In this document: in pieces, positions 7,841-39,370 of the stretch
Layout: each line of letters opens with the position of its first letter
How positions within the stretch are numbered: the first letter of the stretch is position 1
Origin: a virus
Virus record (IMG/VR): IMGVR_UViG_3300022074_000123
Span: 1-39,654 of that record
DNA: 39,654 bases
Reading direction: 5' to 3' (one strand)
Position numbers and translations under genes: made by a program
The notes under the pieces: model-generated
Seen by the model: the letters and a program-made list of their open reading frames with translations, nothing else
What the model was told of the DNA's origin: nothing
The model's database searches: none

Positions 7841-10800
7841 ATGGCACAAGAACAATTACAGATGGTAGATCCTAACGAGTTTGACGATATAACTGCACCT
7901 GATGAACAGAATGTTGTAAAGAGTCCTGATGTGAAGTTAGCAGAAACAGAAAATGCAGGTGTTGATTTAGCTACTACACCTGAAGAAACTACTGATCAAG
8001 TTGCAAAAGTAGAAAAACCGTCTACGGTTGATAAACAAATACAACAAGATGTAGTTGAAGATAAAAAAGTAGATTACGTTGCTGATGAAGCATCTGTAAC
8101 TAAACCAATTATACGCACAAGATCATCTAAATATTTTGTAGACGACAGAGATAAATTAAAACCAACAACAGGTTTAGTTCCGGGAATAAAAACAACACAA
8201 GATATTATTGCGGCCGAAGATGAAAAAGCAGGTTTGTACACTCGTGATATGAAATCTGAAGCTGAAAAAGATTTGGAGGATCAGGATAGACCAGTAAATC
8301 CTGATGAGTTGTTAAATACTTGGAGACAAAATAAAGTACCTCCTGCAGAATTAAGAGATGAAGAGTGGGATGATCTTTCTTTTGCGTATACAGTTTTATA
8401 TAATCCCGGTAATAATCAATTTAGTCAACAAGACAAAACAGATGCAAAACAAACTGTAAATGACACCATACAAATAATAAATGGCATTAGAAAAAAGAAA
8501 GGCGTAAAAGTAGGCTTTGATAGAGATGGTCAATTTCAAGCTACAGAAAGAGCATTAGAAGAAAAAAAGTATGGTGACAATGATCTATACAATGATCAAC
8601 AAAAATACCAAGAGGGTAGGAAACAGCTATATAGTCTTGTAAAAGGCGTTGGTAAAAATATATCTGAATTTAGAGAAAATGACAAAGTAATAGTTCAACA
8701 AATATTGATGGACAAGATTGTCACTGGTGAATTTTGGGAAGCACTAAAAACAACAGCCAATGAAACAGTAAGAGCATTTGCTTTAGATCTACCTAACTTT
8801 GCTTACAATATGATATATTACGGTGGACAAGCAGTTTTTAAGGGAGCTAGAGATCCGTTCAAAAGCACAGGAGACTATTGGAAAGAAACAGAATCTTTAA
8901 GAGAAAATAGTATTAAGGGTTGGAAGGAAGCCATATCAGGTGGTGATCCAATACAACTATCTGATCATATAAATGATACTATACACTCTGAATTAAAAAA
9001 GATGCTCGATAAAGGAACGATAGATAGAGTAACGTACGACAGAATTACCACTGTGCAAGATGTTGGAACGCAAGGACAAGTCCAAAGAGTACGCTTGCGT
9101 AATATAGTAGATGAAACTCAATCTCAATCATTTTTAAATGAGTCTTTAAATCAACTATCTAGTACAGATACTTTTTTATTAATCGCTGCAGAAAATCTTG
9201 CAGGCATGGGTGGTTTAGCAAATGTAAGAAAAGCAAGAGCTTTAAGTAGTTACAAAAATTTAGAAAAAGATGTAAGCAAAGAAACTTTAAAAAAAATAAA
9301 ACAAGGTGACTTTACTTATCTTGGTATGACAACAGTTGAAGCAGCAAGAAAATTAAAAGCAGACGGTGTTAAGATCAAGATAAACGAAGATTTAATTCAA
9401 CAAGCATTGCGTATTGATTTAAATAAGACTCAAGTTTTAAATATGAAAAGAGGTTTACAAAAAAAGGGTGAAGAGTTAGACAATCTGAAAAATAAGTTAA
9501 AAAGAGATTTTGGTAGAGACTTTGATCCAATGGACAATACTGAATATCTTAAAGCAAAAAATGATTATGATTCTTTAAAAGGTAAACTTTTTAGAAATCA
9601 TTTTCTTGCTAGATCTTCACCGTTTTTTAAAGAATCTGCACAAATAGCATTTCCTGCTTCTATAACACAATACGTTGCAGTTGAGTTTTTGGGAACAAGT
9701 GAAGGAGGAGATCCTGCCTTACTTGATTTTTACACAGCACAAGGTGTAGGTGCATTAGTTCATTTCTTTGGTAGTATTCCAATTAAAGGTATATCTTTAG
9801 GTGGTTTGTTGACTGCAGCTCCAAGATACTTAGCACAACAAGCAGGACCTGTAAAAGATGCAATTCTTGACTTAGGAGAAACTTTAAGATTACCTGTTGA
9901 TATTTTTAGATCTAGAGACATTGAAGAATTAGATGCTCTCGTGGCTCAAGCAAGAAACGGCAGGGGTCTTAATATGAAAGAAAGACGAGGTGCAGAGTAT
10001 ATATTTAATTTAGCAAATATCATGCCTAAGAATAGATTAGACAAAGTTCTTGGTAATTTAAAAGATCAAATAGATTTAGAAGAACGAATAATAAAACAGT
10101 TTCCTGAACCAGAACAAGCTGAAATTAGAAAACTTGTTTCAGCACCATTTGCACAAGCTTCAGGTTTAACTTGGTTGATGAGTGCATCAGCAATGGCAGG
10201 AACAGGAATAGATATACGTGATGTAAAAAGTTTAGTAAAAGCAGAAGAAATACAAGAAATAGCTGATTCAAAAATAGCTGAATTAGCTCTTCTGTCGAGA
10301 GGTTTAGATCAATTTCGTTCTAAGCTTAGAAATAGAACAGATATAGAAAATCCTCAAGCAGTAGAAAACTTTATAGACAAGTATAAAAAATTGTATGAAT
10401 TAAACATGAAGAAGATAGAGGATGAAAACACTGCGTTTGCAAGCACTATAATTAAAATGAAAGAAACAGTGTTTTTAGATACAGATTCAACTATAGATAA
10501 AAACATATTTAATTCACTTAGCAGAGCCAGTGTTAATGCACGGATGCAGTTAAACAAAGTTTTAACTGAAGGTGAAGCTATAGAGGAAGATCAGGCAGAT
10601 AATTTTAAACTATTAGCACAAAGAGCTAAAATAATAAAAAGTAGACAAAAGTCACCAGAGTCTATGGATCAATCTGCTTTACTCTTAGAAAGAATATTTG
10701 AAGAACATGTAAGAGGTTTCTATCTTCGTGGTAAATTAGGATACAAAGAAGTAGATCAACTTGCTAAAAAACAAAATAAATACATAGACATTACTGAATT

Positions 10801-12736
10801 AATGTTTGAATTTAAAGAAATAGCTGACCCTCTTAAAGCAACTGGTTTTGGAACTTTCTTTGGTAGGAAGGGTAAATTCTTTGACACTACTTTAAATTCT
10901 CAACTTAGATTTTCTTTAAACAAAATGGCTGTAAGAACTTTATCGCAGTTAAAAGGAACAACTCTTAGAAAATTAAGACAAATGGCTAGGGATAAAGACA
11001 GCAAACACTACATTGCTAAAGATGCAGATGATATGGATATAGCTTTGTACTACTATGAAAAGGGTGATCTTAAAGCTTTCAAGGCATTGCCTAGTCAGTT
11101 GACAGATGTATATGCTGCGTTTAGAGATTACGGTTATAGATTAGATTCTCAACTGCCTGATGAAAAGAAAAAGTTTGTTAGCTTGTTTAAAGGTAAAGCA
11201 AACGATATAATAAAAATGGTAGAAGATCAAGCACCTGAATATGCTGAAAAATATAAAGAAGCAAGTGCAAATTATAAAAAAGAAGTATTTGACAGACTTG
11301 ATGGTGGAGGACCTATAACAACATTTTTAAAATCTAAGTCTTTACGAGAAACAGAAGTATCAAAATCAGGAGAAAATAAATTCTTTCAAAATACATACGC
11401 AGGTAAAACTCCAGATGAGATAGTTAGAGAAGTTATACCTAAGATGGATAGGTATGTAAACAAAGGAGATGAGGGAGCAAGAACAGATATACGAAATTTT
11501 TTCTTAGACTTCTCAAACCAATTTACAGATTTTGAAAAAGGCAGTAATAGACCTGCTTTTAATTTAGATACTGAACTAGGAAAAGCAAAGTTTGATGGAT
11601 TACAAGAAGCTTTTACTAATTTTATGTATCATAATTATGCCACTAAATTTACAGAGCAATATAAAAAATTAGATCCTAGAGTAAAAAGTCAACTACAAAG
11701 CAAAATGGGAGGTTACGACTTTAGTATTCTTGATGATGATCGTTTAAATGAACTTACACGATTATCTTCTGTAGATGTAATAATAAACGGTAAGCCAGAC
11801 ACAAGAAATTTACTAAACTTATCTAATTTAATTAGTGACAACAAAGATATAGTTAAACTTATGGCAGAGAACAAAACTGCTAGAGAATCATACTCTAGAT
11901 TTGTTGCAACAGGAAATGAAAGAATAAACACTATACTCAAGGGTGAAGCTGTAAAAGAGTTTCGTAAAAGAGACTTTGTGCTTGAGCAGATAAGTGATAT
12001 AACAGGATACAAAGGTAATCCACTAGGTTTCTTTACTAACTACGTAGAAAATGGCACAGTAGAAGGCTTACGTCTTATTAAACAAGATATATTAAGTAAA
12101 TCAAAAAAACTAGATGGAGAGCCAATAACAGAAAAAGATTTGGATAATACTCTTCTTTATTTAGCAGTGCAAGGTGCTTACGCAAAAGGTGGATTAAGAA
12201 CATCGACTTCAAAAAAAATACCTACATTTGATGGTTTTTACAAACCAATAAGACAGTTTACAAATGTAGATGAATTGTTTGGTGCGTTTAAAGGCAGTAA
12301 TTCAAAAGCTATACTATCTGATATAATCGGTGAAGAGCATACAGAATTTTTAACAGATATAACTGAGCTTATGCTTAGAAAACAAGAGTCTTTGATTGGA
12401 ACAGAAAGAATAACTAATCTTACAAGACCTATAAGCACAAACGAAATAATAAGTAGAGGATTCAACTTAGCTAGAGGAATGGTTAGTCCTGCATACGTTG
12501 GTGCTGAAATAGCATTTAGACTAGCGAGCAATGCAGGAATAGAAATGTTAGGCATGGCTGCAAACAGTAAGGAAGCTGCCAGACTTATGAAAAAAATGTT
12601 TGAGTTTCCTGAGAAGATAACAAAAGTTGAATTAAGTAAATTTAAAACTTTAGCTGTTGACTATGTTCTTACAGAATATGCTAGACAAGATTTAAATATA
12701 TCAGATTACTTTTACGATCCAACACAAGAAGATTAA
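7841..12736 (+). CDS. giant internal virion protein (ejection protein candidate)
   Basis: With 1631 residues this is the largest gene in the window. Its acidic, low-complexity N-terminus (first about 110 residues) is followed by a long helical region with several hydrophobic stretches: near residue 445 (TFLLIAAENLAGMGGLANV), near residue 640 (GVGALVHFFGSIPIKGIS), near residue 775 (GLTWLMSASAMAGTG) and near residue 1555 (MVSPAYVGAEIAFRLASNAG). T7 gp16 (about 1300 residues) is a comparable giant that is ejected and lines the channel through the envelope. I found no lytic transglycosylase or lysozyme motif at the N-terminus. The role is inferred from size, position and hydrophobic segments. Confidence 0.65.
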   Translation: MAQEQLQMVDPNEFDDITAPDEQNVVKSPDVKLAETENAGVDLATTPEETTDQVAKVEKPSTVDKQIQQDVVEDKKVDYVADEASVTKPIIRTRSSKYFVDDRDKLKPTTGLVPGIKTTQDIIAAEDEKAGLYTRDMKSEAEKDLEDQDRPVNPDELLNTWRQNKVPPAELRDEEWDDLSFAYTVLYNPGNNQFSQQDKTDAKQTVNDTIQIINGIRKKKGVKVGFDRDGQFQATERALEEKKYGDNDLYNDQQKYQEGRKQLYSLVKGVGKNISEFRENDKVIVQQILMDKIVTGEFWEALKTTANETVRAFALDLPNFAYNMIYYGGQAVFKGARDPFKSTGDYWKETESLRENSIKGWKEAISGGDPIQLSDHINDTIHSELKKMLDKGTIDRVTYDRITTVQDVGTQGQVQRVRLRNIVDETQSQSFLNESLNQLSSTDTFLLIAAENLAGMGGLANVRKARALSSYKNLEKDVSKETLKKIKQGDFTYLGMTTVEAARKLKADGVKIKINEDLIQQALRIDLNKTQVLNMKRGLQKKGEELDNLKNKLKRDFGRDFDPMDNTEYLKAKNDYDSLKGKLFRNHFLARSSPFFKESAQIAFPASITQYVAVEFLGTSEGGDPALLDFYTAQGVGALVHFFGSIPIKGISLGGLLTAAPRYLAQQAGPVKDAILDLGETLRLPVDIFRSRDIEELDALVAQARNGRGLNMKERRGAEYIFNLANIMPKNRLDKVLGNLKDQIDLEERIIKQFPEPEQAEIRKLVSAPFAQASGLTWLMSASAMAGTGIDIRDVKSLVKAEEIQEIADSKIAELALLSRGLDQFRSKLRNRTDIENPQAVENFIDKYKKLYELNMKKIEDENTAFASTIIKMKETVFLDTDSTIDKNIFNSLSRASVNARMQLNKVLTEGEAIEEDQADNFKLLAQRAKIIKSRQKSPESMDQSALLLERIFEEHVRGFYLRGKLGYKEVDQLAKKQNKYIDITELMFEFKEIADPLKATGFGTFFGRKGKFFDTTLNSQLRFSLNKMAVRTLSQLKGTTLRKLRQMARDKDSKHYIAKDADDMDIALYYYEKGDLKAFKALPSQLTDVYAAFRDYGYRLDSQLPDEKKKFVSLFKGKANDIIKMVEDQAPEYAEKYKEASANYKKEVFDRLDGGGPITTFLKSKSLRETEVSKSGENKFFQNTYAGKTPDEIVREVIPKMDRYVNKGDEGARTDIRNFFLDFSNQFTDFEKGSNRPAFNLDTELGKAKFDGLQEAFTNFMYHNYATKFTEQYKKLDPRVKSQLQSKMGGYDFSILDDDRLNELTRLSSVDVIINGKPDTRNLLNLSNLISDNKDIVKLMAENKTARESYSRFVATGNERINTILKGEAVKEFRKRDFVLEQISDITGYKGNPLGFFTNYVENGTVEGLRLIKQDILSKSKKLDGEPITEKDLDNTLLYLAVQGAYAKGGLRTSTSKKIPTFDGFYKPIRQFTNVDELFGAFKGSNSKAILSDIIGEEHTEFLTDITELMLRKQESLIGTERITNLTRPISTNEIISRGFNLARGMVSPAYVGAEIAFRLASNAGIEMLGMAANSKEAARLMKKMFEFPEKITKVELSKFKTLAVDYVLTEYARQDLNISDYFYDPTQED

Positions 12737-18855: not shown

Positions 18856-20385
18856 TTACAGATCTACTTCAGATAAGTCAAGCCAATTCTTTCCTATTTT
18901 TAATTCGATACCTACAGGCATGTCGTATTCTACGCCATACCTACGTTTTGTCTCACTTGGTAGACACAACATTGCTTCAGATAATACATCGATACACTGT
19001 TGCTTTTCGTTTGGATGAACATCAAGAACAATAGAATCGTGTACTGTGTTGCAAATAACCGACTGCATTTTTAGTTCTCTCATCTGTCTATCTAGCTCCA
19101 CCAACGCAATAGGCAATAGATCAGCCGTAGCGAACCCCTGAACAGGGTAATTACAAATAGCAGTACGATTGGTAGCTGTACCCCACTCTGTCCATCTAGC
19201 GTCAGGAAAACAGTATTCTCTTCCTGACGGTAATTTTATAATTTTTGTAGTCACAGCCTGCTTCTCAAGTTCTTTGTGCCACTCACTCACCTGTTCATAC
19301 TTCTCTTTGAATCTTCTGTAGTATGCCTGCTGACTTTGTGTACCACTTACACCACCGTACAATGGCTTGAATGTGTGTGCTTTTGCTTCCTGTCTAGAGC
19401 AGCCAATGATAGATGCAGTATAGCTGTGAACATCTGTGCCTTTCTTTACATCATCGTACACCTGACTATCTTTAGAAAGAAAGCCTGCCACTCTGAACTC
19501 CAACTGTGAGTAATCACCCTCAAGTATGAAGCCATCATCAAATCTACTTTCGACAACCTTACGTATGGCAAATGTAGAACCACGTGGCATGTTTTGAAAA
19601 TTAGGATTACGACTAGATAGCCTGCCTGTTGCTGTTACACATTGCATAAACTCAGGATGAATAAAATTGTAATCATCCACGTTGTTTTTCATACCCTCTA
19701 CAAAGGTAGACAAATAGGTACGCAAAGCATTGTATCGTACATAAGCTTCACAGAACTCACGTGCATCACCACTTAGTTCAGATAGCCTATCTTCTAAGGT
19801 TACCTTGTCTGTCTTGAAACCTGCTGACGCTGTGTCTCTTGGTGTACGAGGTATGATTTTAAAACCTGCCACCTCACCTGTAGATGTATAGACTACACCT
19901 TTACCCTCACAAATTTTACATATTCGTTTGGCTTTACCAACACTACCGTCTTTTTTGAGAGGTGTTATCCTACCTGATCCACGACAGGTTTCACATTGAC
20001 GACCAATTGTTTTGTAAACTATGTCAGTCATACGCCTGACGTACTGTACAAAGTCTTTGTTTTTCATACGTGTACGCATCTTAGGTTTGATTGTATTGCC
20101 ACGCATCTCATGTCCAAGATTAAACGTAAGCGACCAAAGAGATTTATCTTTTACTTTTCGTGAGTAAAGCAACACACTCTTGTCATCAGGACTTGCAAGA
20201 TTGATAGGAGTATCTCCCATTGCATTTTTGGCTAGTCTGTTCAGCTTAGTTTCCAACATGGTCATCTCATCCATGTATTGTTTTTCAATATCTTCTAGGG
20301 TATCTGTGTTTATCTTTAGTCCGTTGTGTTCTATCCTAGATAGCGTGTTCGTCATCTCGAACGACAGTTTCAGTGTTTGTTTCAT
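18856..20385 (-). CDS. polA: family A DNA polymerase, polymerase domain with DnaJ-like zinc-finger insertion
   Basis: The protein has 509 residues and catalyses DNA synthesis. Motif A is GDYSQLEFRV (D291), motif B R331-QEAK-AHTF-KPLYGG (F339 at the position of E. coli Phe762) and motif C VHDSIVL (H449, D450). Residues 131-163 insert two CxxCxGxG units (C131/C134 and C156/C159), like half of a DnaJ central zinc domain. I recall this insertion from the HMO-2011 polymerase. The 3'-5' exonuclease is in a separate upstream gene, overlapping by 50 bases in another frame. This ATG has its own GAGGAA site at good spacing, so independent translation is well supported. Confidence 0.93.
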   Translation of the reverse strand: MKQTLKLSFEMTNTLSRIEHNGLKINTDTLEDIEKQYMDEMTMLETKLNRLAKNAMGDTPINLASPDDKSVLLYSRKVKDKSLWSLTFNLGHEMRGNTIKPKMRTRMKNKDFVQYVRRMTDIVYKTIGRQCETCRGSGRITPLKKDGSVGKAKRICKICEGKGVVYTSTGEVAGFKIIPRTPRDTASAGFKTDKVTLEDRLSELSGDAREFCEAYVRYNALRTYLSTFVEGMKNNVDDYNFIHPEFMQCVTATGRLSSRNPNFQNMPRGSTFAIRKVVESRFDDGFILEGDYSQLEFRVAGFLSKDSQVYDDVKKGTDVHSYTASIIGCSRQEAKAHTFKPLYGGVSGTQSQQAYYRRFKEKYEQVSEWHKELEKQAVTTKIIKLPSGREYCFPDARWTEWGTATNRTAICNYPVQGFATADLLPIALVELDRQMRELKMQSVICNTVHDSIVLDVHPNEKQQCIDVLSEAMLCLPSETKRRYGVEYDMPVGIELKIGKNWLDLSEVDL

Positions 20386-20932
20386 ATAATTCCTCGAATG
20401 TTAAGCCAAAGGCTTCTAGTTGTTTTAATGCAACCTGTTCAGTTGCGACTACATCGGCAATACCGTATTCTTCTACTATCTCTGCAGGTATGTCATAGAA
20501 TGTCTTGCCATCTTTGAGATATGGTTTAACTAAGTCTACTTCTTTTTGAGTAACATCGTATCGTTTTGCAAGAGACTCAAGTGACAAAGACCAACGCCTA
20601 CCTTTTGATCTTAGGTATTCTGCTACCATAGTATCATACAGAACACCATCAAAAGTAAAACCACATGATCGCAACCATGTTATGTCAAACTTTATATTTT
20701 GTCCAATCAGAACATCTGCTCTATCTAAATCTTTTTGTATCAAGTTTACAATATCTGACTCATAATTGTACTCACTATCTTTGTGATAGAAAAACTTATA
20801 GTTAACGTGATCGTTTAACAACCACTTCCAACCTATTGATACTAATCGGTTATTGAAATAAGGTAGTGCAGTAATGCCACCCCCCTCTTTGTCTTGGTGT
20901 GTAGTTTCTACATCTAAAGTTAGTACTCTCAT
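20336..20932 (-). CDS. DNA polymerase 3'-5' exonuclease subunit (split family A polymerase)
   Basis: The protein has 198 residues, starting at the ATG at 20932, which overlaps the helicase stop by one base. A longer frame to 20986 would lie within the helicase gene. Exo I is LTLDVETT (the D and E metal ligands), Exo II is IGQNIKFDITW, and Exo III is EYGIADVVATE (Y and D, three residues between). This is the proofreading domain normally fused to the N-terminus of T7-type polymerases. Its last 11 codons are read through the start of the polymerase gene in another frame and end at TAG. The two products probably associate. Confidence 0.88.
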   Translation of the reverse strand: MRVLTLDVETTHQDKEGGGITALPYFNNRLVSIGWKWLLNDHVNYKFFYHKDSEYNYESDIVNLIQKDLDRADVLIGQNIKFDITWLRSCGFTFDGVLYDTMVAEYLRSKGRRWSLSLESLAKRYDVTQKEVDLVKPYLKDGKTFYDIPAEIVEEYGIADVVATEQVALKQLEAFGLTFEELYETNTETVVRDDEHAI

Positions 20933-22158
20933 CAGTAATACACTCCTCTGCTTATATCTATTTGGGCATTGATCATACCATGCCAACCATTGATCTTGTT
21001 CTTAGATATACAGATGTGTCGCACTACATTATCTATTTCACTTGATCCTGTTTTCCCTATACCTATAATGATATCAGCTTCACCTGCCTTACCTGTCTTG
21101 GAATTGTCAAGCATAGCATAGTCAATAAATTGTCTGTCGTGTGCATCGTAACTTGCTTGGCTTACTGCCCACACAAGACACAAATTTCGTTTAGCTATCT
21201 CTCTTGCAGACACATAAGTTTCCTTCAAACGTTCATCTCCACGATTGTACTCACCACGTATTCTGAATTTGTCTAGCTGATCACAAAACATGACATCAGG
21301 TTTGTTCAGCTTGGCATACTCATCTACCTCTTCTACAGATGTACCTACCGAATCCATGATAGTCAAGTATGGTTCTATCTCTGTCTTGTATCTTTCCAAA
21401 AGACTAAACCTCTGTGCTACCATATCTTCTTTTGTCAGTTCAAAGTATGATTGGATGATACGTAACTTGATTCGCTTGGCAGGTTCTTCGTTTGCCCAAT
21501 ACACAACCTGAAACCCTTGACGTATGTACGATGATGCAAGAAAGCAACAAAACGTTGTCTTACCCACTTCAGGTCTTGCAAACAAGATACCTAAGTTGCC
21601 ACGATCTAAACCTTTGATGTTCTCATTTATTAAGTTGAATGTGAATGGGAAATCATTGTCACCTGCTTCTTCAGATAACAGTTCGTTCAGATCTTTGTCA
21701 ACAATGGTGTAGGTGGTCTTGTCACCTATCCTGCCATCATCTACACTTTCGATGAGTTTCTTTAACTCACCAAACTCATCACTGTCACCAGTGAATATGT
21801 CTAATGCTTTCTCTCCTATCTGCCTTGCTTTGTCTCGCAGCCACAGGTTATTTACAATGTCAGTGTGTAACTCATCGCTTTCTTTTGGTGCAACGAGTTG
21901 TACAATCATATCCTGTACACGATTCCTAGCTGAATCAGGCATGGCAGGATTACGGTCATTAAATATTGTGGACAGTTCAGGAACAGACAGACTACGGTCA
22001 TACTTGGTATGTGAATAGACTATCGTATCAAATATATCTTTGAGTTCATTGTCGAACATAGTCCGATCAATTTTATTTTTTACTTTATTGAAGAAATCAA
22101 TATTGAGACAAAAACCTATTACTTGTCTGTCAATTGATATAACGCCTGATGAAGTCAT
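20932..22158 (-). CDS. DnaB-type replicative helicase
   Basis: The protein has 408 residues. The Walker A loop is ARPEVGKTTF (residues 194-203, like ARPSMGKTT in DnaB) and the Walker B strand is PDVMFCDQLD near residue 290. A later IDYAMLDNSKTGKAGEADIIIGI segment is like DnaB motif 4 and the following glutamine/arginine region. The N-terminal 140 residues are a helical DnaB N-like domain. The enzyme unwinds the fork as a hexamer. In T7 the primase is fused to the helicase; here it is a separate upstream gene overlapping by 29 bases. A GGGGAAAG site precedes the ATG. Confidence 0.9.
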   Translation of the reverse strand: MTSSGVISIDRQVIGFCLNIDFFNKVKNKIDRTMFDNELKDIFDTIVYSHTKYDRSLSVPELSTIFNDRNPAMPDSARNRVQDMIVQLVAPKESDELHTDIVNNLWLRDKARQIGEKALDIFTGDSDEFGELKKLIESVDDGRIGDKTTYTIVDKDLNELLSEEAGDNDFPFTFNLINENIKGLDRGNLGILFARPEVGKTTFCCFLASSYIRQGFQVVYWANEEPAKRIKLRIIQSYFELTKEDMVAQRFSLLERYKTEIEPYLTIMDSVGTSVEEVDEYAKLNKPDVMFCDQLDKFRIRGEYNRGDERLKETYVSAREIAKRNLCLVWAVSQASYDAHDRQFIDYAMLDNSKTGKAGEADIIIGIGKTGSSEIDNVVRHICISKNKINGWHGMINAQIDISRGVYY

Positions 22159-29803: not shown

Positions 29804-29900
29804 AAAACTGGCAGAAATACTTATGTGCGTGTGCGTACGCATGGGTCACTGGGGGTACTGGCATATTTGCATGCAATGTCGCCATATTTTTACTAGAATG

Positions 29901-29992
29901 AGTTAGTTGTACAGGTAACGGTGCATCCCTTTGGGATAGCGTGGGGGGATATGGTGTATTTCCCCGGAGGTTCTACTCCGATTGTACTAACT
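29901..29992 (+). ncRNA. branched RNA-like fold of unknown type
   Basis: An outer stem pairs 29901-29905 and 29909-29914 with 29982-29992 (a three-base bulge at 29906-29908). Inside are three hairpins: ATCCC/GGGAT at 29925-29937, GGGG-type with CCCC at 29943-29965, and CGGAG/CTCCG at 29965-29980. The layout is a cloverleaf of about 90 bases, but the D- and T-arm sequences and loop lengths do not match a tRNA. The strand is chosen because the late promoter and genes read this way. It could equally be a packaging or origin structure. Confidence 0.4.
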
Positions 29993-30385: not shown

Positions 30386-30755
30386 AATAAGTCCTCAACA
30401 GGAGCAATTTCTAGAAGTACTCTTTGAAAATGGTGGAAACGTAACTGATGCAGCCCTCAAAGCAGGATATGCAAAGGGATCAGTGACGTGGCTACGCACA
30501 TCTTTAGCAGATGAGATCATAAACCGTACAAAGAACATACTATCTATGAACGCATTTAAGGCAGCTACACGTCTTGTAACTACTATAGACAACCCAATAC
30601 CTGAAAGAGGGGATGACCTACGCTTCAGGGCGGCAGAATCGCTGTTAAACAGGGTAGGACTGGGTAAACAGGAAACAACCAACGTAAATGTACAGGCAGT
30701 ACACGGAATAGTTCTGTTGCCGCCTAAGAAAGACGTTGTAATCGATGGAAACTAA
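30348..30755 (+). CDS. terS: terminase small subunit
   Basis: The protein has 135 residues from the ATG at 30348 (a GTG three bases earlier is also possible). A helix-turn-helix pattern lies near residues 16-45 (ISPQQEQFLEVLFENGGNVTDAALKAGYAK), followed by a helical oligomerisation part and FRAAESLLNRVGLGK. It recognises the packaging site and brings it to the large subunit. It overlaps the large subunit gene by 11 bases and the preceding small gene by 38. Family-level identification rests on the fold pattern and position directly before the large subunit. Confidence 0.8.
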   Translation: MNLLPKQKSKAREISPQQEQFLEVLFENGGNVTDAALKAGYAKGSVTWLRTSLADEIINRTKNILSMNAFKAATRLVTTIDNPIPERGDDLRFRAAESLLNRVGLGKQETTNVNVQAVHGIVLLPPKKDVVIDGN

Positions 30756-32427
30756 GAAGCGTGGTCGCCCAAAGAAAGACCCTAACGCACCCAAACAAAG
30801 ATACAACTATTCATCTGCAATCAAAGCTCGTAAACAGACACAACGTAGACTTACTGAAGCCAAAAAACGAGCAACAAAGATAACGAGACAAGCAGAAAGT
30901 AAAAGAAGATATGCCAGAAAACTCGAAGAAAAAATCACCAAAGTCGACAAAGCTCTCAATCAAAAAGAGACTACTGTTATCGACAAAACGGATCTGCAAC
31001 AGCTTCCAGACGTTGTTGAGCAACTGGTGGATGGGCGTGAAATTATTTTTCAGCCGAATGAAGGACCTCAAGAAGAGTTTCTTTCCTCAAGTGAAAGAGA
31101 CGTTCTTTACGGTGGTTCGGCAGGGGGTGGCAAAAGCTTTGCCTTACTTGCAGACCCCTTACGGTATTGCCATAATAGCAACCATCGTGGGCTTCTTCTT
31201 AGGCGTACTCTGGATGAGCTAACAGAACTTATTGACAAGTCACGTCAGCTATATCCCAAAGCTTTCCCCGGTGCAAAGTTCCGGGAGTCAAAGTCAACGT
31301 GGCACTTTCCATCAGGTGCAACAATATGGTTTACCTATCTTGACAAAGACAAAGACGTAACAAGATTTCAGGGTCAGTCGTTTAACTGGATAGGCATAGA
31401 TGAGATAACCCAATATCCCTCGCCTTATGTTTGGGATTATCTCCGTTCACGACTAAGGGCAACTGATCCTGAACTGCAAAAACATCTGTACATGCGTTGT
31501 ACAGCAAACCCCGGAGGAGTCGGAGGTTGGTGGGTCAAGAAGATGTATATCGATCCATCTGAACACAACTCGACTTTTCCTGCAATAGACATCGAAACAG
31601 GCAAAGCTTTCTTGTGGCCGCAAGGACATGAAAAAGCAGGTGAGCCACTCTTCTATCGTAGGTTTATACCTGCACGTTTGACTGACAATCCATACTTGTT
31701 GGCTGACGGACAATACGAAGCGATGCTACGATCCCTACCTGAAGTTGAACGTAAGCGACTTCTTGAAGGCGACTGGGAAGTAACGGAAGGTGCAGCCTTT
31801 CCTGAATTTAGTAGAAGTAAACATGTGGTCCCGAATTTTGACCTTCCACCGAATTTCCCCAGAATACGTGCCGCTGACTATGGGTATGCGAGTCCTTCTT
31901 GTGTCCTGTGGGGTGCTATTGACTGGGATAACAATATATGGGTTTATCGTGAACTGTATGTAAAACAGTTGACAGCAGAGCAGTTAGCAGATAGAATACT
32001 ACAAGTAGAACAAGAAGATCCGACCCCCCACTATACTGTACTTGACTCATCGTGTTGGAACAAGACAGGCTTTGGTCCTTCCATAGCAGAGACAATGATG
32101 AGATGTGGAGTGCGTTGGATGCCATCGGACAGAAACCGACTTCAAGGCAAAATGGAAATACATCGTAGGCTTGCCGATGACCCACGAACAGATGAACCTA
32201 GAATACGAATATTTCCGAACTGTGTCAACCTCATCAAACAACTATCAGGTATACCTCTTAGCAAAACAAATGCAGAGGATGTGGACACAAAGGCAGAAGA
32301 TCACGCATACGATGCACTACGATATATGTTAATGACAAGGATGACAGGATATGTGTCGATTCATAAAACGCTTGGTGGTATTAAGAATCAGGTCTATCAA
32401 ATGCAAGACCAAACATTTGGGTATTAA
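30745..32427 (+). CDS. terL: terminase large subunit
   Basis: The protein has 560 residues and is the ATP-driven DNA-packaging motor with a nuclease. The Walker A is GGSAGGGKS (123-131) and the Walker B is WIGIDEIT with catalytic E220. A coupling-type segment TANPGG follows near residue 253. The nuclease has D378 (AADYGY), D434 (TVLDSS) and D519/D523 (EDHAYDA). The N-terminal 70 residues are very basic and begin with KKRGRPKKDP, an AT-hook-like unit, then a coiled coil. This extension is unusual for the family and may help DNA contact or small-subunit binding. Confidence 0.95.
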   Translation: METKKRGRPKKDPNAPKQRYNYSSAIKARKQTQRRLTEAKKRATKITRQAESKRRYARKLEEKITKVDKALNQKETTVIDKTDLQQLPDVVEQLVDGREIIFQPNEGPQEEFLSSSERDVLYGGSAGGGKSFALLADPLRYCHNSNHRGLLLRRTLDELTELIDKSRQLYPKAFPGAKFRESKSTWHFPSGATIWFTYLDKDKDVTRFQGQSFNWIGIDEITQYPSPYVWDYLRSRLRATDPELQKHLYMRCTANPGGVGGWWVKKMYIDPSEHNSTFPAIDIETGKAFLWPQGHEKAGEPLFYRRFIPARLTDNPYLLADGQYEAMLRSLPEVERKRLLEGDWEVTEGAAFPEFSRSKHVVPNFDLPPNFPRIRAADYGYASPSCVLWGAIDWDNNIWVYRELYVKQLTAEQLADRILQVEQEDPTPHYTVLDSSCWNKTGFGPSIAETMMRCGVRWMPSDRNRLQGKMEIHRRLADDPRTDEPRIRIFPNCVNLIKQLSGIPLSKTNAEDVDTKAEDHAYDALRYMLMTRMTGYVSIHKTLGGIKNQVYQMQDQTFGY

Positions 32428-32431
32428 ATAA

Positions 32432-34429
32432 ATGGCAGCAGGAACACAAGCTTACATTGTAGGACAAGAATACGATCCTAGAAAAATAACTCTAGAAGAT
32501 TTTATTTCTATGTTTGAAAAAGAAAGCACCGAGCAGGGTGGTAGAAAAAATCAAACGTGGGGTAACCTGATAAGAAATAACCCAGTAACAAAAAAATATT
32601 TAGATCAGCCTGCTATAATGTTATTTGGTGCAGTTCCTTCAGATTCTGATAGTATAATGGCTGATATTCAAAATGCTGCAAAAGGTCAAGCTAGTACAAT
32701 CCAATCAAAATTTAGAGTTATAGAAGCAAACCTATTTCCTAAGTTAGCTATTCTTGGTAAAAAAGAAGGAGTAGATTTATTATCTGGATATTCAAAGATA
32801 TCAGAGGAAGTAAAAAAACTTCAAACTAGAGGTGGAAAGTTTACAGCTAAAAAAGGATTTGATGTAACTAAGGTTGGAGACTTAATAGAAAATTTAATTG
32901 AACATGTTAAAAATAATTCTAAAGATAAACCAATAGCTAACGCCATTTTATTTAATTTAGAAAATGGTAGTAGACCCAGTTTAACAACTGAATTACGAAC
33001 TTTCATGTATGAAAAAAACAAGTTTGGTGAAGCTGCACAAACTATGGGTTTAACTGGTAGAGATGGTTTACTTATACCTGCAGGAACTACAGGTGTAAAA
33101 AGACAAGCTAAAGGTCAAGCTCCAAATATACAACCTTATAACGCACCGTTATCAAAAAGAGCCGTTGCTATTTTACAGGATCAAAGTGAGTATAATAAAA
33201 ATATAGTAGGCGATAATAGAAAATTAGATTTTTATTTTCAAGTTGAAGAATTAAAAGGGACTAAGTTTTACAAAAAGGGAGAGATGCGACCCATATCTTT
33301 AGAAGATATAAACAGAGTTTTAAAAACAACAACACCAAAAGGCTTACTCATAGAGTACACCACTAAAGGATCTAAGGAACTTAGTGAACCTATTACATCC
33401 AAAAATTTAAGAAACTTGTTTATAAATATTGGGGGTTTAAGTATCACTAACAAAACAAATTTAGCCATGTTAACAAACAGAGATATGGCAGAAAATACTG
33501 GATCTCAAGAAATATACATGGGTAAACCCGGTCAGTATAATCAAACTGCCATTGATGATTTAGATAAAATAAGTTTACGAACTTGGGGATTATTTAGTTT
33601 AAGAAATCCTGAAGCACAAAAAATATATAAAGAACAAGGTAAATTTCGTAATATAAATGAGTTTATTTTTGGTAAAAATGAGTTAAGCACAGATGGAAAA
33701 TTAATACCTGATGAAGTAACGTATGAAAACTTTGATACCGTAAAAGCAAAACCCATACCAATACAAACAACAGGTTTTGCTCCACCTGAAGAAAGTACTA
33801 CTACTGAAAAAACTTTTGTTGCAAAAGAAGAAAATAAAAAAGTTTTAGACTTTGATGACTTTGATGATGATGAAAAAAACGAGATGCGAAAATTAGGCAT
33901 TTACGATAAAGATGTTGGATCAAATGAACCCACAAGAATACAAAAAGCAAAAGGTTTAAAATCTATAGATCCATCTGCAATAATTTTAGGTGGTGCAGCA
34001 GGATCAGAAATCCTTAGTGATACTGGTGAGTTAGTTGGTGAAGAAGTTACGCAGTCAACTATAGCTCAAACACTCGCAAAGACTGCACCGAAGTTAGCAC
34101 AGACTACACTTGGAAAAGCTTTACCAGTGGCAGGTGCAGGATTGGTCTTTCCGTCATCTCCTACAAACGTAGATGAAGTAGAAGGGTTTGCAAGAAAAGA
34201 TATTGACAGACGCTTTGCAGGTATAGATCAGATGGATACATCCCAAGAAAAACAAATATTTCAAGATGATCCTAGACTGCAAGGAACAACAGCTATGTAC
34301 GATCCATCAGAATTACCAAGACGAGACGCTGAAGATCCACTGAGTGATGAAGCGTACAGAAAAAGATTTCTAGAACAATCTAGAACAAAAGCAAGTTCAC
34401 AATTAAGTGGGTTTGCACAACCTCGCTAA
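32432..34429 (+). CDS. large protein with tyrosine-recombinase-like domain
   Basis: The protein has 665 residues. Residues of about 165-370 match, piece by piece, the catalytic fold of tyrosine recombinases: helix with Arg (FNLENGSRPSLTTELR, R181), a beta-hairpin with Lys (GVKRQAKG, K223), NAPLSKRAVAIL, Box II-like K324-xx-R327 (TSKNLRNLF) and a C-terminal Tyr (QEIYMG, Y362). Residues 20-130 could be a core-binding domain. The rest (about 440-665) is acidic and probably disordered. The region matches by pattern alone, and the usual histidines are absent. Its place between terminase and portal suggests a structural or packaging function, or a decayed integrase. Confidence 0.5.
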   Translation: MAAGTQAYIVGQEYDPRKITLEDFISMFEKESTEQGGRKNQTWGNLIRNNPVTKKYLDQPAIMLFGAVPSDSDSIMADIQNAAKGQASTIQSKFRVIEANLFPKLAILGKKEGVDLLSGYSKISEEVKKLQTRGGKFTAKKGFDVTKVGDLIENLIEHVKNNSKDKPIANAILFNLENGSRPSLTTELRTFMYEKNKFGEAAQTMGLTGRDGLLIPAGTTGVKRQAKGQAPNIQPYNAPLSKRAVAILQDQSEYNKNIVGDNRKLDFYFQVEELKGTKFYKKGEMRPISLEDINRVLKTTTPKGLLIEYTTKGSKELSEPITSKNLRNLFINIGGLSITNKTNLAMLTNRDMAENTGSQEIYMGKPGQYNQTAIDDLDKISLRTWGLFSLRNPEAQKIYKEQGKFRNINEFIFGKNELSTDGKLIPDEVTYENFDTVKAKPIPIQTTGFAPPEESTTTEKTFVAKEENKKVLDFDDFDDDEKNEMRKLGIYDKDVGSNEPTRIQKAKGLKSIDPSAIILGGAAGSEILSDTGELVGEEVTQSTIAQTLAKTAPKLAQTTLGKALPVAGAGLVFPSSPTNVDEVEGFARKDIDRRFAGIDQMDTSQEKQIFQDDPRLQGTTAMYDPSELPRRDAEDPLSDEAYRKRFLEQSRTKASSQLSGFAQPR

Positions 34430-34441
34430 AAGGAGAAAAAA

Positions 34442-34660
34442 ATGGCAGACAATCTTAATCAAGGTGCAGCCTATATAATGGGATCAGACAAAGTATCAGT
34501 TAATGATGCTCAAGGATCTAATAGCTTACATAGAGAAGGTCTTGAGTTTACTATGGAAGTAAATCAAGATGCGTTGCAAGTTGACATGCCAAAGAAGCAA
34601 ACAAAACCTACTGTTGAAGCTTCTTTATTTGCTATGGCTGACGACAAAAACTACTTTTAA
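34442..34660 (+). CDS. uncharacterised small protein between terminase and portal
   Basis: The protein has 72 residues with a very strong AAGGAG site before the ATG, so it should be highly translated. It begins MADNLNQGAAYIMGSDKVSV and has a polar middle (GSNSLHREGLEFTMEV) and an acidic or basic tail (DMPKKQTKPTVEAS). It is followed 13 bases later by the portal gene. It may be a small head protein. No family was recognised. Confidence 0.6.
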   Translation: MADNLNQGAAYIMGSDKVSVNDAQGSNSLHREGLEFTMEVNQDALQVDMPKKQTKPTVEASLFAMADDKNYF

Positions 34661-34673
34661 TCAAGGATAAATT

Positions 34674-36797
34674 ATGGCTGATGAAAGTTTTCTTCAACCT
34701 GATGACGACACTCCTGTATCTATCGAAAATCCACAAGAGCAGATGCCCGGATTGGCAGGGTACGTTAAATCTAAGTTTGAAGATGCAGAGAATGGTAGAC
34801 GTTCTCACGAACTAAAATGGTTACAGTCTTATAAAAACTTCAAAGGTATCTACGATTCTACAACTCAATATCGTGACTCCGAAAGATCAAAAGTATTTAT
34901 TAAGATAACCAAAACTAAAGTTCTTGCTGCGTATGGACAGATAGTGGATATACTATTTAGCAATAAAAAGTTTCCACTTGTTGTAGAACCTACTCCTATG
35001 CCTGAAGGCATCGAGGAGTTTGCTCACATGAAAACTCCAGTTGATGAAGCTGAACAGCCAGTTGATCCATTTGGTTTTGAGGGAGATGGCAGAGAGCTAC
35101 CCCCCGGAGCTATGTCGGCTCGTGAGCCACACAAGCTAGGAACATACGGTAACGATTTTCCTGACATGTTGGCATCAGGACCTGCAAAGATGGGTGAGCC
35201 ACAAGTTAAGCCTGCACAGAAGATGGCTATGAATATGGAGAAATGTATTCATGATCAACTTATGGACAGTAACGCAGTTAACGTATTTCGTAAAGCTATA
35301 TTTGAATCAGCACTGCTTGGAACAGGTATAGTCAAAGGTCCATTAAACTTTTACAAACGTGTTCACAACTGGCAGATGAATCCTGATACTGGACAAAAAG
35401 AATATAGTCCATATGAAAAGGTAATGCCACGCATTGAATATGTATCTCTGTGGGATTTTCATCCTGATCCGTCTGCAACAAGTATTGAAGATTGTGAGTA
35501 CGTAATACAAAGACATCGTATGAACCGTCAACAACTTCGTGGTCTAATCAAACGACCATACTTTGATGCGTCAGCTATTGAAGAGTGTCTTGCTAAAGGT
35601 CCTAACTACGAAGATAAATACTACGAAGATACCATACGTGAAGATGATACTGAACCTTACTATCAAGAAAACAGATACGAAGTTCTTGAGTACTGGGGTG
35701 TCATAGATAAAAAACTTGCAGATGAAGTTGGTATGGAAAATGCCAATGATATGTCAGAGTTTGATCAGTTGCAAGTCAATGTATGGGTATGTGGTGGTAT
35801 GGTCATTCGATGTGTCGCAAATCCATTTACACCTGCACGATTACCTTTCCAAGCTTTTCCATTTGAAATAGATCCTTACCAGATATGGGGTGTTGGTGTT
35901 GCAGAGAATATGGAATACTCACAAAAATTAATGAATGGTCATTACCGTATGGCTATTGATAACTTAGCACTTGCAGGTAATCTTGTATTTGATGTAGACG
36001 AAGCAAGCTTAGTCCCCGGTCAAAACATGGATATATTCCCCGGTAAGATATTTAGACGACAGTCAGGTGTAACAGGCACAGCAATTAACGGACTAAAGTT
36101 TCCAAACACTGCACCAGAGAACATACAGATGTATCAGATATCACGACAACTCGCTGATGAAGATACAGGTATACCATCCATACTACACGGACAAACAGGT
36201 GTAACAGGAACTGGTAGAACCGCTGCAGGACTATCTATGTTGATGGGTTCAGCAGGACTAGCAATGAAAACAGTCATAAAGAATATAGATGATCATTTAC
36301 TGAAGCCACTGGGTGAATCTTTGTTTCAATGGAACATGCAGTTTAATGATGATTTAGGGGAGATAAAAGGGGATCTAGAAATAAAACCTCGTGGGGTTGC
36401 AGCAGTTATGCAAAAAGAAGTACGTACACAAAGATTAACTGCTTTGCTTCAAACCGTATCTAACCCAATGCTTGCACCTTTTATCAAGATACCTAACTTG
36501 ATAAGAGAGCTTGCAATAGCACAGGATATTGATCCTGATACGTTAGTCAACGATGCCAACGAAGCACAACTATACGCTGAAATGTTAAAAGGAATGATGG
36601 CTAATGTACAACAAGGAGCAGGCGAGGATGCTGTCGCCACTAATCAACAGCAAGGAATGGGTCAACCTAGTGGAGTACCTCAACAACCTGAAGGAACTGA
36701 CAGTCAAGGGTCTGGTAACGGCACAATCGGAGTCGGAGCTACGCCAACTGCAGGGGAAACTGGCTTTACTGGAAATGCTCCTAGAGTTGAAGAATAA
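34674..36797 (+). CDS. portal protein
   Basis: The protein has 707 residues and forms the ring through which DNA enters and leaves the head. It is recognised by its order (after the terminase), size, and features typical of podovirus portals: RRSHELKWLQSYKNFKGIYD near residue 43, the membrane-proximal AYGQIVDILFSN, WDFHPDPSATSIEDCEYV near residue 260 and YRMAIDNLALAGN in the central domain. The C-terminal 70 residues are Gln/Gly/Thr rich and unlike the rest. A different gene is read through that stretch in another frame. Confidence 0.9.
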   Translation: MADESFLQPDDDTPVSIENPQEQMPGLAGYVKSKFEDAENGRRSHELKWLQSYKNFKGIYDSTTQYRDSERSKVFIKITKTKVLAAYGQIVDILFSNKKFPLVVEPTPMPEGIEEFAHMKTPVDEAEQPVDPFGFEGDGRELPPGAMSAREPHKLGTYGNDFPDMLASGPAKMGEPQVKPAQKMAMNMEKCIHDQLMDSNAVNVFRKAIFESALLGTGIVKGPLNFYKRVHNWQMNPDTGQKEYSPYEKVMPRIEYVSLWDFHPDPSATSIEDCEYVIQRHRMNRQQLRGLIKRPYFDASAIEECLAKGPNYEDKYYEDTIREDDTEPYYQENRYEVLEYWGVIDKKLADEVGMENANDMSEFDQLQVNVWVCGGMVIRCVANPFTPARLPFQAFPFEIDPYQIWGVGVAENMEYSQKLMNGHYRMAIDNLALAGNLVFDVDEASLVPGQNMDIFPGKIFRRQSGVTGTAINGLKFPNTAPENIQMYQISRQLADEDTGIPSILHGQTGVTGTGRTAAGLSMLMGSAGLAMKTVIKNIDDHLLKPLGESLFQWNMQFNDDLGEIKGDLEIKPRGVAAVMQKEVRTQRLTALLQTVSNPMLAPFIKIPNLIRELAIAQDIDPDTLVNDANEAQLYAEMLKGMMANVQQGAGEDAVATNQQQGMGQPSGVPQQPEGTDSQGSGNGTIGVGATPTAGETGFTGNAPRVEE

Positions 36798-36825
36798 TCA
36801 CGAAAGAATAAATAAAAATGGCTGA
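36628..36825 (+). CDS. small coiled-coil protein overlapping the portal 3' end
   Basis: The protein has 65 residues, starting at ATG 36628 with AAGGAG nine bases upstream; a longer in-frame start at 36604 has no such site. It is read in another frame than the portal over 170 bases. It begins MLSPLINSKEWVNLVEYL and ends with heptads (ELRQLQGKLALLEMLLELKN), a clear helical unit that I recognise from small proteins downstream of phage portals. The portal in the same DNA is low-complexity, which fits dual coding. It may stabilise or regulate portal assembly. Its stop overlaps the next gene by eight bases. Confidence 0.75.
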   Translation: MLSPLINSKEWVNLVEYLNNLKELTVKGLVTAQSESELRQLQGKLALLEMLLELKNNHERINKNG

Positions 36826-39370
36826 CATTTTTGATTTTGGTGTAGACTTTGGTCTTTCTTTCTTTGAGCCTTTGCCAGAGAGACGAAAACGTACTGGTAC
36901 GTTGACACGTGAAGAATACGCTAAAGAAAATGTTGATTTTTATGAACAGAGCTTAGACGATACTTTAGGCACTGGCATAGAACTTAGATTTAAAGATGAT
37001 GAAAAAAAAGAAGAAGAAGATAAAAAAGAGGACATTGACGTAAATGTAGTGGGTGGAGACGATGAACCTGCTTCTATATCTGCTTCTAGTTACGATGTGC
37101 AAGACACAGGAGAATTAGGGTTAGGAGCAGGAGAACAAATTGGAATAGGAGGTACGGCAAACACTTTAGGATCTGTTAATGTTGGAACTTATGGACAATC
37201 TTTATCACAAGCAGGTTTAGGAGATAAAAATCCATTTAGTGCTTTTGGTCTAGACATATACACAGCTTCTGTTCCAACAACAAAAGATGAAGCAAAAAAG
37301 GGATTAGCAAAACAATTTTCAAAAGAAAAATTAACTCAAAGTGCAGTTAAATTTGCAGGAAGAATGATAGGTATGCCTGCACCTTTAACGTCAGGTGTAA
37401 TGGGTTTTGTAAACGGAGTTACTGTTAATGATCCTTTAGGGAATCCTAGCTTTAGACCTAGCCATCCTGTTTTTGGATTGGCTCACGATTTAAATATGTC
37501 AATACAATTTAGTAATGCTTCAGCTATAAATGCAGCTATAAACGCAAATCTTGATGTTCCATATGCAGAGAGAGGTCCTATAGGTTTTATGGGATACGAT
37601 CCTACAAACGGTCAATTAATAAGCAGGGCCCCGTTAGGCATGACGTGGACTGGAACTACAAATCTTTCAGTACAACAACTAAGTGCGTTAGAAGCTTTAT
37701 CTAAAGGTTTTACTACTAACGGATATAACAATCAAACAGAAAGAGGAGAAGTTCTAGCTATGGGAACTGACACCATCGGAGGTCAGACAGTAGGAGGATA
37801 TAGCAACAATGGATTTCACCACGGTATAAATGGTGCGTCAAGAACTGGAACTATGGCACAAGCTGAAAAAGCTGCAAAAGGATATGGTATTACCACCAAA
37901 CAATTTACTAATATTTTATCAACAGTACGTAAAAATCTTACTTTTTTTGGTAAGCCTAAAAGCAGTAAACTTACTTTAGATTATTTAAGTAGAAAACAAT
38001 TCAGAGATAATGAAACAACAGGTGGATCATATAGTATGGGTCTTGAGACCGATGTCACTGCTCAACAAAATATTGAAAATGCTTTAAGTCAGGGAATAGG
38101 CGTAAATGAATTTGGCGGCATATCTGCACAAGGTTTAACAGATGTTCAAGGTATTAGTCAAGCTACTCAAGGTATAACGAGTGGAAGTTTTGGCACAGTA
38201 AGTGTTGAAAGTCCGGGTGATAACAGTAATGATGGTGGTAGTGGTAGTGGCAGTGGGGCTGCAGGAAGTGGTTCAGACAGTGGTCCGGGAGGTGGCGTTG
38301 GAGGAGATGCTACTGGGGGATATACTGCATTTGGTGGACAGATTGGTGAAGGTATGCAAGAAGGTGGTCCTGCAGGATTTATTGGTGGGCCTCCTGAAAA
38401 CTACAGCGATCAAACAACCATCGCAGATGACATACCTCTAGAGGTCAAAGATGGTACTTTTGTTATAAATGCTCCTGCTGTAGAATACGCAGGATCAGAT
38501 GATATTAGCGAAATGTTAACAAAAGCGTACGAAAAAGCAGGACAAGCTATTGACAAATCTGGACAAAGGACTACAATACCAAGTAAGGAACAAATTAATA
38601 TAATGATTTCACGAGGTGAAGTCGTAGTTCCTCCCCAAATAGCAAAGATCATAGGATACGATCGTTTAGAGAAAATAAACAATCGTGGTAAAAAAGAAGT
38701 TGCAAGACGACAGAAGCAAGGTGATCAAGAAAAGCCACAAGCTAGACAAGCTAACGAAGGTGGTTTTATAGAAAAAGCTGAAGGTGATAAAGTCACTGTA
38801 TACAGAGGTGAACCTTCAAAATTTCCTAAAAGAGCAGAGCTACTTAGAGATAAATACACTGGCTCTTGGTTTTCACCAAATAAAAATTTTACAAAGACAT
38901 ACGGTGAAGTTGCAAAAACTATGGAGCTTACTTTTGACGAATATAAAAAGGGTGCAAAAAAAGCTTTTTTAAAAAAGAATATATCAACACGAAGAATGGA
39001 AAACAGAGACGCTAAGTTACCTCCAAACTTGACAAGAAGTCAAAGATCTAGAATATTTCAATCTTTAAAGTATATAGATTTTATGGCTAATGAAGTTAAA
39101 AAAGGAAACAGAAGCACTAAAGCGTTTGCAGATTTTATGTATGAAGGAGTATTTCCAAAAGAAAAAGATAAAGCAACAGTAATGCTGTTAGAGACTGCAA
39201 AAAGAAGTCCTAAAGCTTTTGGAAAATTAGTAGTAGATAGTTTAGTTAAAAACGTTGTATCAAAAGGAATACCTGTAGTTGGAGCAGTAACAGGATTTGC
39301 TCCTAAAGAAATGGGCGATGCAACTCTTAGTGGCAAAGAAGGATTTATTTATGACTATCGTAGTCAATAA
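36818..39370 (+). CDS. large virion protein with Gly-rich linker and possible ADP-ribosyltransferase-like C-terminus
   Basis: The protein has 850 residues. The N-terminal 90 are charged, then follows a Gly/Asn/Ser-rich region with GFHHGINGAS near residue 340. A Gly/Ser linker lies at about residues 473-500. Residues of about 530-630 include DGTFVINAPAVEYAG and ISRGEVVVPPQIAKIIGYDRL, a pattern I know from several marine phage virion proteins. The last 190 residues begin VYRGEP (about 661) then GSWFSPNKNFTKTYG (about 682), like the first two motifs of ADP-ribosyltransferases, but no ExE motif is visible. It lies between the portal and the probable scaffold gene. Confidence 0.6.
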   Translation: MADIFDFGVDFGLSFFEPLPERRKRTGTLTREEYAKENVDFYEQSLDDTLGTGIELRFKDDEKKEEEDKKEDIDVNVVGGDDEPASISASSYDVQDTGELGLGAGEQIGIGGTANTLGSVNVGTYGQSLSQAGLGDKNPFSAFGLDIYTASVPTTKDEAKKGLAKQFSKEKLTQSAVKFAGRMIGMPAPLTSGVMGFVNGVTVNDPLGNPSFRPSHPVFGLAHDLNMSIQFSNASAINAAINANLDVPYAERGPIGFMGYDPTNGQLISRAPLGMTWTGTTNLSVQQLSALEALSKGFTTNGYNNQTERGEVLAMGTDTIGGQTVGGYSNNGFHHGINGASRTGTMAQAEKAAKGYGITTKQFTNILSTVRKNLTFFGKPKSSKLTLDYLSRKQFRDNETTGGSYSMGLETDVTAQQNIENALSQGIGVNEFGGISAQGLTDVQGISQATQGITSGSFGTVSVESPGDNSNDGGSGSGSGAAGSGSDSGPGGGVGGDATGGYTAFGGQIGEGMQEGGPAGFIGGPPENYSDQTTIADDIPLEVKDGTFVINAPAVEYAGSDDISEMLTKAYEKAGQAIDKSGQRTTIPSKEQINIMISRGEVVVPPQIAKIIGYDRLEKINNRGKKEVARRQKQGDQEKPQARQANEGGFIEKAEGDKVTVYRGEPSKFPKRAELLRDKYTGSWFSPNKNFTKTYGEVAKTMELTFDEYKKGAKKAFLKKNISTRRMENRDAKLPPNLTRSQRSRIFQSLKYIDFMANEVKKGNRSTKAFADFMYEGVFPKEKDKATVMLLETAKRSPKAFGKLVVDSLVKNVVSKGIPVVGAVTGFAPKEMGDATLSGKEGFIYDYRSQ

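Follow-up and report, generated by a model that had tools for sequence, protein, structure and literature searches.

A predicted tyrosine recombinase encoded by an exchangeable cassette between the terminase and portal genes of uncultured marine podoviruses

Results

Organization of the locus

The window, by which we mean the whole stretch of 39,654 nucleotides that was analyzed, belongs to an uncultured HMO-2011-type marine podovirus. The portal protein encoded in it is ~42-51% identical to those of the Pelagibacter phages HTVC033P/103P/104P/115P, of HMO-2011 and of the Roseobacter CRP phages. HMO-2011-type phages are among the most abundant marine phage groups known (PMC9038755). No tRNA or Rfam features were found in the window. 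Its DNA polymerase is encoded on the minus strand (18859-20986) as two overlapping ORFs, an exonuclease part (20339-20986) and a polymerase part (18859-20385), and a late protein of 1631 aa (7841-12736) was without any PHROG match.

The gene studied here, the slot gene, is located in the late operon near the portal and terminase genes (Table 1). It is separated by 4 nt from the gene for the terminase large subunit (TerL) and by 12 nt from a 72-aa ORF. A sequence-only reading of this DNA had called the position between terminase and portal unusual for an integrase, and the literature agrees: in a survey of HMO-2011-type phages, the only integrase genes reported lay upstream of the replication module and came from subgroups I and III and one member of subgroup II (PMC9038755). 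No integrase was identifiable in subgroups IV-X, and several subgroups were called probably lytic because none was recognized there (PMC9038755).

Table 1. Features of the slot gene and its neighbors in the window
Feature	Position	Strand	Basis
Slot gene, predicted 665-aa tyrosine recombinase with C-terminal tail	32432..34429	+	Family profile against PDB sequences, Pfam/PHROG matches of relatives, AlphaFold/Foldseek, conservation
N-terminal helical domain (residues ~1-133), probable core-binding (DNA-binding) domain	32432..32830	+	AlphaFold helices 21-36 and 75-112 at high pLDDT; lambda Int profile matches reach here
Predicted catalytic domain (residues ~138-370): R181, K223, R327, R350, Y362	32843..33541	+	Residue conservation; AlphaFold strands and helices
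Acidic, mostly disordered C-terminal tail (residues 446-665), exchanged separately, GF motif at end	33767..34426	+	Low pLDDT, pI 4.7, swap boundaries, C-terminal motif
TerL, conserved left flank of cassette	30745..32427	+	PHROG terminase large subunit 4e-62
Conserved 72-aa ORF, right flank of cassette	34442..34660	+	Present in 92/92 distinct loci
Portal protein	34674..36797	+	Pfam SU10_portal 1.9e-27; PHROG 1.3e-80
Post-portal gene, 850 aa, second hypervariable gene of the operon	36818..39370	+	Low identity between close relatives

The slot gene is fixed in an uncultured clade

Using portal and TerL as anchors, we retrieved 122 loci having both genes, of which 92 were distinct. A slot ORF of 529-759 aa lay between TerL and portal in 122/122 loci of the window's clade and in none of 62 loci of the sister clade that have TerL and portal. 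The gene was not found in 12 annotated cultured relatives, tblastn with three further family members as queries gave no cultured-phage homologues, and among 77 further loci it never occurred outside the TerL-portal slot. The clade consists of uncultured bacterial viruses that are widespread in the ocean, and the slot gene is fixed within it.

The TerL-portal gap of distant relatives (L170:2339-4888, L163:4250-5857, L171:4247-4906) holds other cargo: an FAD-dependent oxidoreductase (Rhizobium phage RHph_N3_19), an SGNH hydrolase (phiM6) and, by eye, an HNH-like protein (ctYwJ313).

The slot protein resembles tyrosine recombinases

In single-sequence searches, the window's slot protein had no match in Pfam, PHROG, PDB or a collection of phages. 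We built a family profile from the 92 slot proteins and ran it against PDB sequences, where it matched XerA (E = 1.9e-12), Tn1549 Int, an S. aureus integrase and lambda Int, the lambda Int matches covering profile positions 12-205 and reaching into the N-terminal part. Among 75 slot-family members, 34 matched the PHROG integrase family and 32 matched PF00589, which the window protein alone did not.

The AlphaFold model of the window protein was of high confidence over most of residues 10-440. In Foldseek, its first 35 PDB matches were all tyrosine recombinases, including lambda Int, Flp, XerH and Cre, with probabilities up to 1.00; the E-values were modest (~0.01) owing to the long disordered tail, which makes up a third of the protein. 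The slot protein of a second locus, L082, has no BLAST similarity to that of the window, yet its model shows the same fold, with tyrosine recombinases in most top Foldseek matches; its Foldseek matches also include the MrpR/YopR structures. Profile and models thus uphold the recombinase-like fold proposed in the sequence-only reading, and on their evidence the slot ORF is a real, divergent tyrosine recombinase of the lambda Int type. The acidity of the tail, also noticed then, was confirmed as well, with a pI of 4.7 for residues 446-665 compared to 9.4 for residues 1-425.

Active-site residues

The arginine, the hairpin lysine, the K-x-x-R motif and the tyrosine that had been picked out by eye are all in place in the window protein, as R181, K223, K324-x-x-R327 and Y362, together with R350. 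When 92 relatives were aligned with E-INS-i, R181 (Arg-I), R327 (Arg-II) and Y362 (the tyrosine nucleophile) were each present in 92/92. Over 254 well-occupied columns in 75 relatives (13% mean column identity), M1, R181, F269, R327 and Y362 were the only invariant positions. In these alignments, the conservation of R181, R327 and Y362 lies far beyond chance. The hairpin lysine was found in 47/47 members of the subfamily with His at position 350; in the subfamily with Arg there, it could not be cleanly aligned because of indels.

The histidines had been described as lost, which was correct for His-II in all members and for His-III in about half of them. At position 324 (His-II), a site often variable across the superfamily, no member had His (0/92), the residues being S in 33, Y in 16, K in 9 and others. 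Position 350 (His-III), where His or Trp is expected, was H in 47 and R in 45 of the 92, the window being among the latter, and this split matches the three core families exactly. From the conserved residues, it is highly probable that the slot recombinase has kept the ability to cut and rejoin DNA by means of Y362, although catalysis is not certain because His-II is lost in every member.

The slot gene is an exchangeable cassette

We compared 401 locus pairs in which TerL was at least 90% identical. Median identity was 80% for the portal protein, 77.5% for the 72-aa ORF and, with truncated ORFs counted in, 25% for the post-portal protein. Identity of the recombinase core was <30% in 356/401 pairs and mostly undetectable by BLAST. 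The window and L082 are 99.5% identical through codon 4, have nothing detectable in common across the slot gene, and return to 95% identity at the stop codon and beyond. In another pair, L004 and L083, TerL, portal and core have ~100% protein identity while the tails differ. The slot gene is therefore a hypervariable cassette that is replaced wholesale between close relatives, and its core and acidic tail are exchanged separately.

One possible explanation for this hypervariability is fast substitution. We rejected it for the core, where dN/dS in close pairs was 0-0.18, consistent with purifying selection; exchange of old alleles is therefore the better account. The sharp boundaries alone are no proof of site-specific exchange because homologous recombination in the conserved flanks gives the same picture. 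No specially conserved DNA stretch was seen in TerL beside the cassette, identity being flat over the last 1.2 kb. Two hypervariable late genes are thus interspersed among assembly genes that stay frozen, a pattern indicative of strong selection for exchange at just these places.

Swap boundaries of the tail fell near residues 498-509, and one tail family (79/92) was found joined to all three core families. The tail ends in a GF-type motif in 77/92 relatives, compared to 7.7 in shuffles, and its other short motifs were weakly above shuffled controls. Outside the slot, the tail had no significant match to any other gene; its resemblance to the post-portal protein (PTEMGxATL) was weak, with E ~0.6. 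At two loci (L061:3733-5748 and L056:1995-4004), the slot protein carries an extra N-terminal segment of ~130 aa, followed by a core sharing 95-97% identity with that of a relative without the segment.

Among 38 relatives, the domains encoded by the post-portal gene include cell-wall hydrolase (6), pesticin-like (2) and ART-PolyVal (2) domains. The window's post-portal protein had no Pfam match; an ART-like motif, VYRGE...GSWFSP, can be seen in it by eye.

Recombination sites and integrated relatives

The gaps from the slot gene to TerL and to the 72-aa ORF were ≤30 nt in 91-92 of 92 loci, leaving no room for an attP in these adjoining spacers, as distinct from sites inside genes or far off. 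In 20 clade records, all nine PF00589 matches lay within the slot gene and no second integrase was found. No integrated clade member was seen in genome scans or among 782 sampled SAR11-order and alphaproteobacterial genomes, a limited sample of possible hosts.

A noncoding element upstream of terS (window 29863-29986) contains the blocks ATGCAATGTCGCCATATTTTTA and TTTCCCCGGAGGTTCTACTCCGATTGTA, which are common to 29 aligned loci whatever the recombinase allele. It is possibly a packaging site or a promoter. As a recombinase site, the 0.7-kb region upstream of terS was rejected, its conserved blocks being independent of the recombinase allele; consensus folding of its gappy alignment gave no structure.

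Discussion

A recombinase that may travel in the virion

From the operon context, we tentatively favor a recombinase that is produced late, carried in the virion and ejected along with the DNA. The slot recombinase would be made together with head proteins, its tail would target it to the virion, close to the portal, and after ejection with the genome it would act on phage or host DNA as infection starts. Such acts on entry could include an attack on competing DNA, or the circularization or integration of the genome. Differences in DNA target from one host or rival element to the next would be the reason for swapping the recombinase module. We hold still more loosely to the complete scheme, in which a virion component acts as soon as it enters and its DNA-target module is traded between near-identical phages in the manner of an effector cassette.

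Association with the virion or head fits both the operon position and the tail. The occurrence of one tail family on three core families is as expected of a targeting module, and the post-portal neighbor has enzyme domains typical of injected phage proteins (PMC5512222). On the other hand, tails are exchanged between near-identical phages, which a pure targeting signal would not need, the tail is without significant similarity to any other gene, and His-II is lost in every member. Nor was a DNA substrate found in the spacers adjoining the gene, the region upstream of terS or the end of TerL.

The main alternative is a conventional integrase, relocated to the packaging operon, that integrates the phage into the host chromosome and whose alleles are swapped for different attB sites. 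Integrase exchange is usual among temperate phages, and the slot protein has the full lambda-Int-like architecture and active site and is the only PF00589 match in the 20 clade records. Some integrase-bearing HMO-2011-type phages, such as CRP-3, are temperate (PMC9038755). However, the lack of attP space beside the gene and of clade prophages in the genomes searched leaves a classical integrase possible but not favored. Fixation in 122/122 loci is also at odds with the usually patchy occurrence of integrases, and the separate exchange of the tail would be left unexplained. We consider this alternative unlikely.

Another possibility is that the protein serves packaging, resolving concatemers or circularizing genome ends alongside the neighboring terminase. 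Recombinases such as P1 Cre perform related jobs, and both the location between TerL and portal and the conserved element upstream of terS would suit this role. A fixed site needs a fixed recombinase, however, whereas here TerL and the element are conserved while the recombinase is replaced, making this role decidedly improbable. A new kind of resolvase, one of two options in the sequence-only reading, is possible; no recombination site was found in the regions examined.

The other option, a recombinase fold merely turned into a packaging or head protein, is disfavored, since alleles that otherwise cannot be aligned all have the catalytic R, R and Y. More generally, a non-catalytic fold repurposed as a DNA-binding regulator or structural protein has a precedent in the SPbeta repressor MrpR and would suit the universal loss of His-II, but in MrpR both catalytic arginines are gone (PMC10516654, Table 3). 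The slot family, by contrast, has R, R and Y in 92/92 with nearly all else variable and thus looks enzymatic, so that we regard repurposing as very improbable.

The presence of a conserved but overlooked recombinase in all sampled members of a large uncultured clade would call into question lifestyle calls of the "probably lytic" type. Alternatively, it would reveal a recombinase that serves in packaging or as the DNA enters the cell.

Comparison with known systems

The integrase of HMO-2011-type phages (subgroups I and III) belongs to the same phage group and the same superfamily as the slot protein. The two are set apart by description: that integrase is patchy and lies upstream of the replication module (PMC9038755), whereas the slot gene is fixed in its clade and lies in the packaging operon. 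MrpR/YopR (PMC10516654) likewise represent a divergent recombinase fold in phage, and differ in the arginines discussed above.

Packaging and injection have been proposed for polyvalent proteins (PMC5512222). The slot gene shares with the genes for such polyvalent or injected proteins (T4 Alt, the P1 Dar proteins, N4 virion RNA polymerase) a late operon near portal and terminase, and its post-portal neighbor has PF07486 and ART-PolyVal domains, which are characteristic of that class (PMC5512222). A word search of PMC5512222 gave no mention of a recombinase or integrase.

The closest likeness in fold, motif order (R, K, R, H/R, Y) and N-terminal helical domain is to the Phage integrase family (PF00589, PHROG 1; lambda Int, XerA, Tn1549 Int). 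In contrast to that family, the slot family is always without His-II, has Arg at His-III in half of its members, and combines an acidic C-terminal tail of 155-290 aa with a TerL-portal location and the wholesale exchange of alleles.
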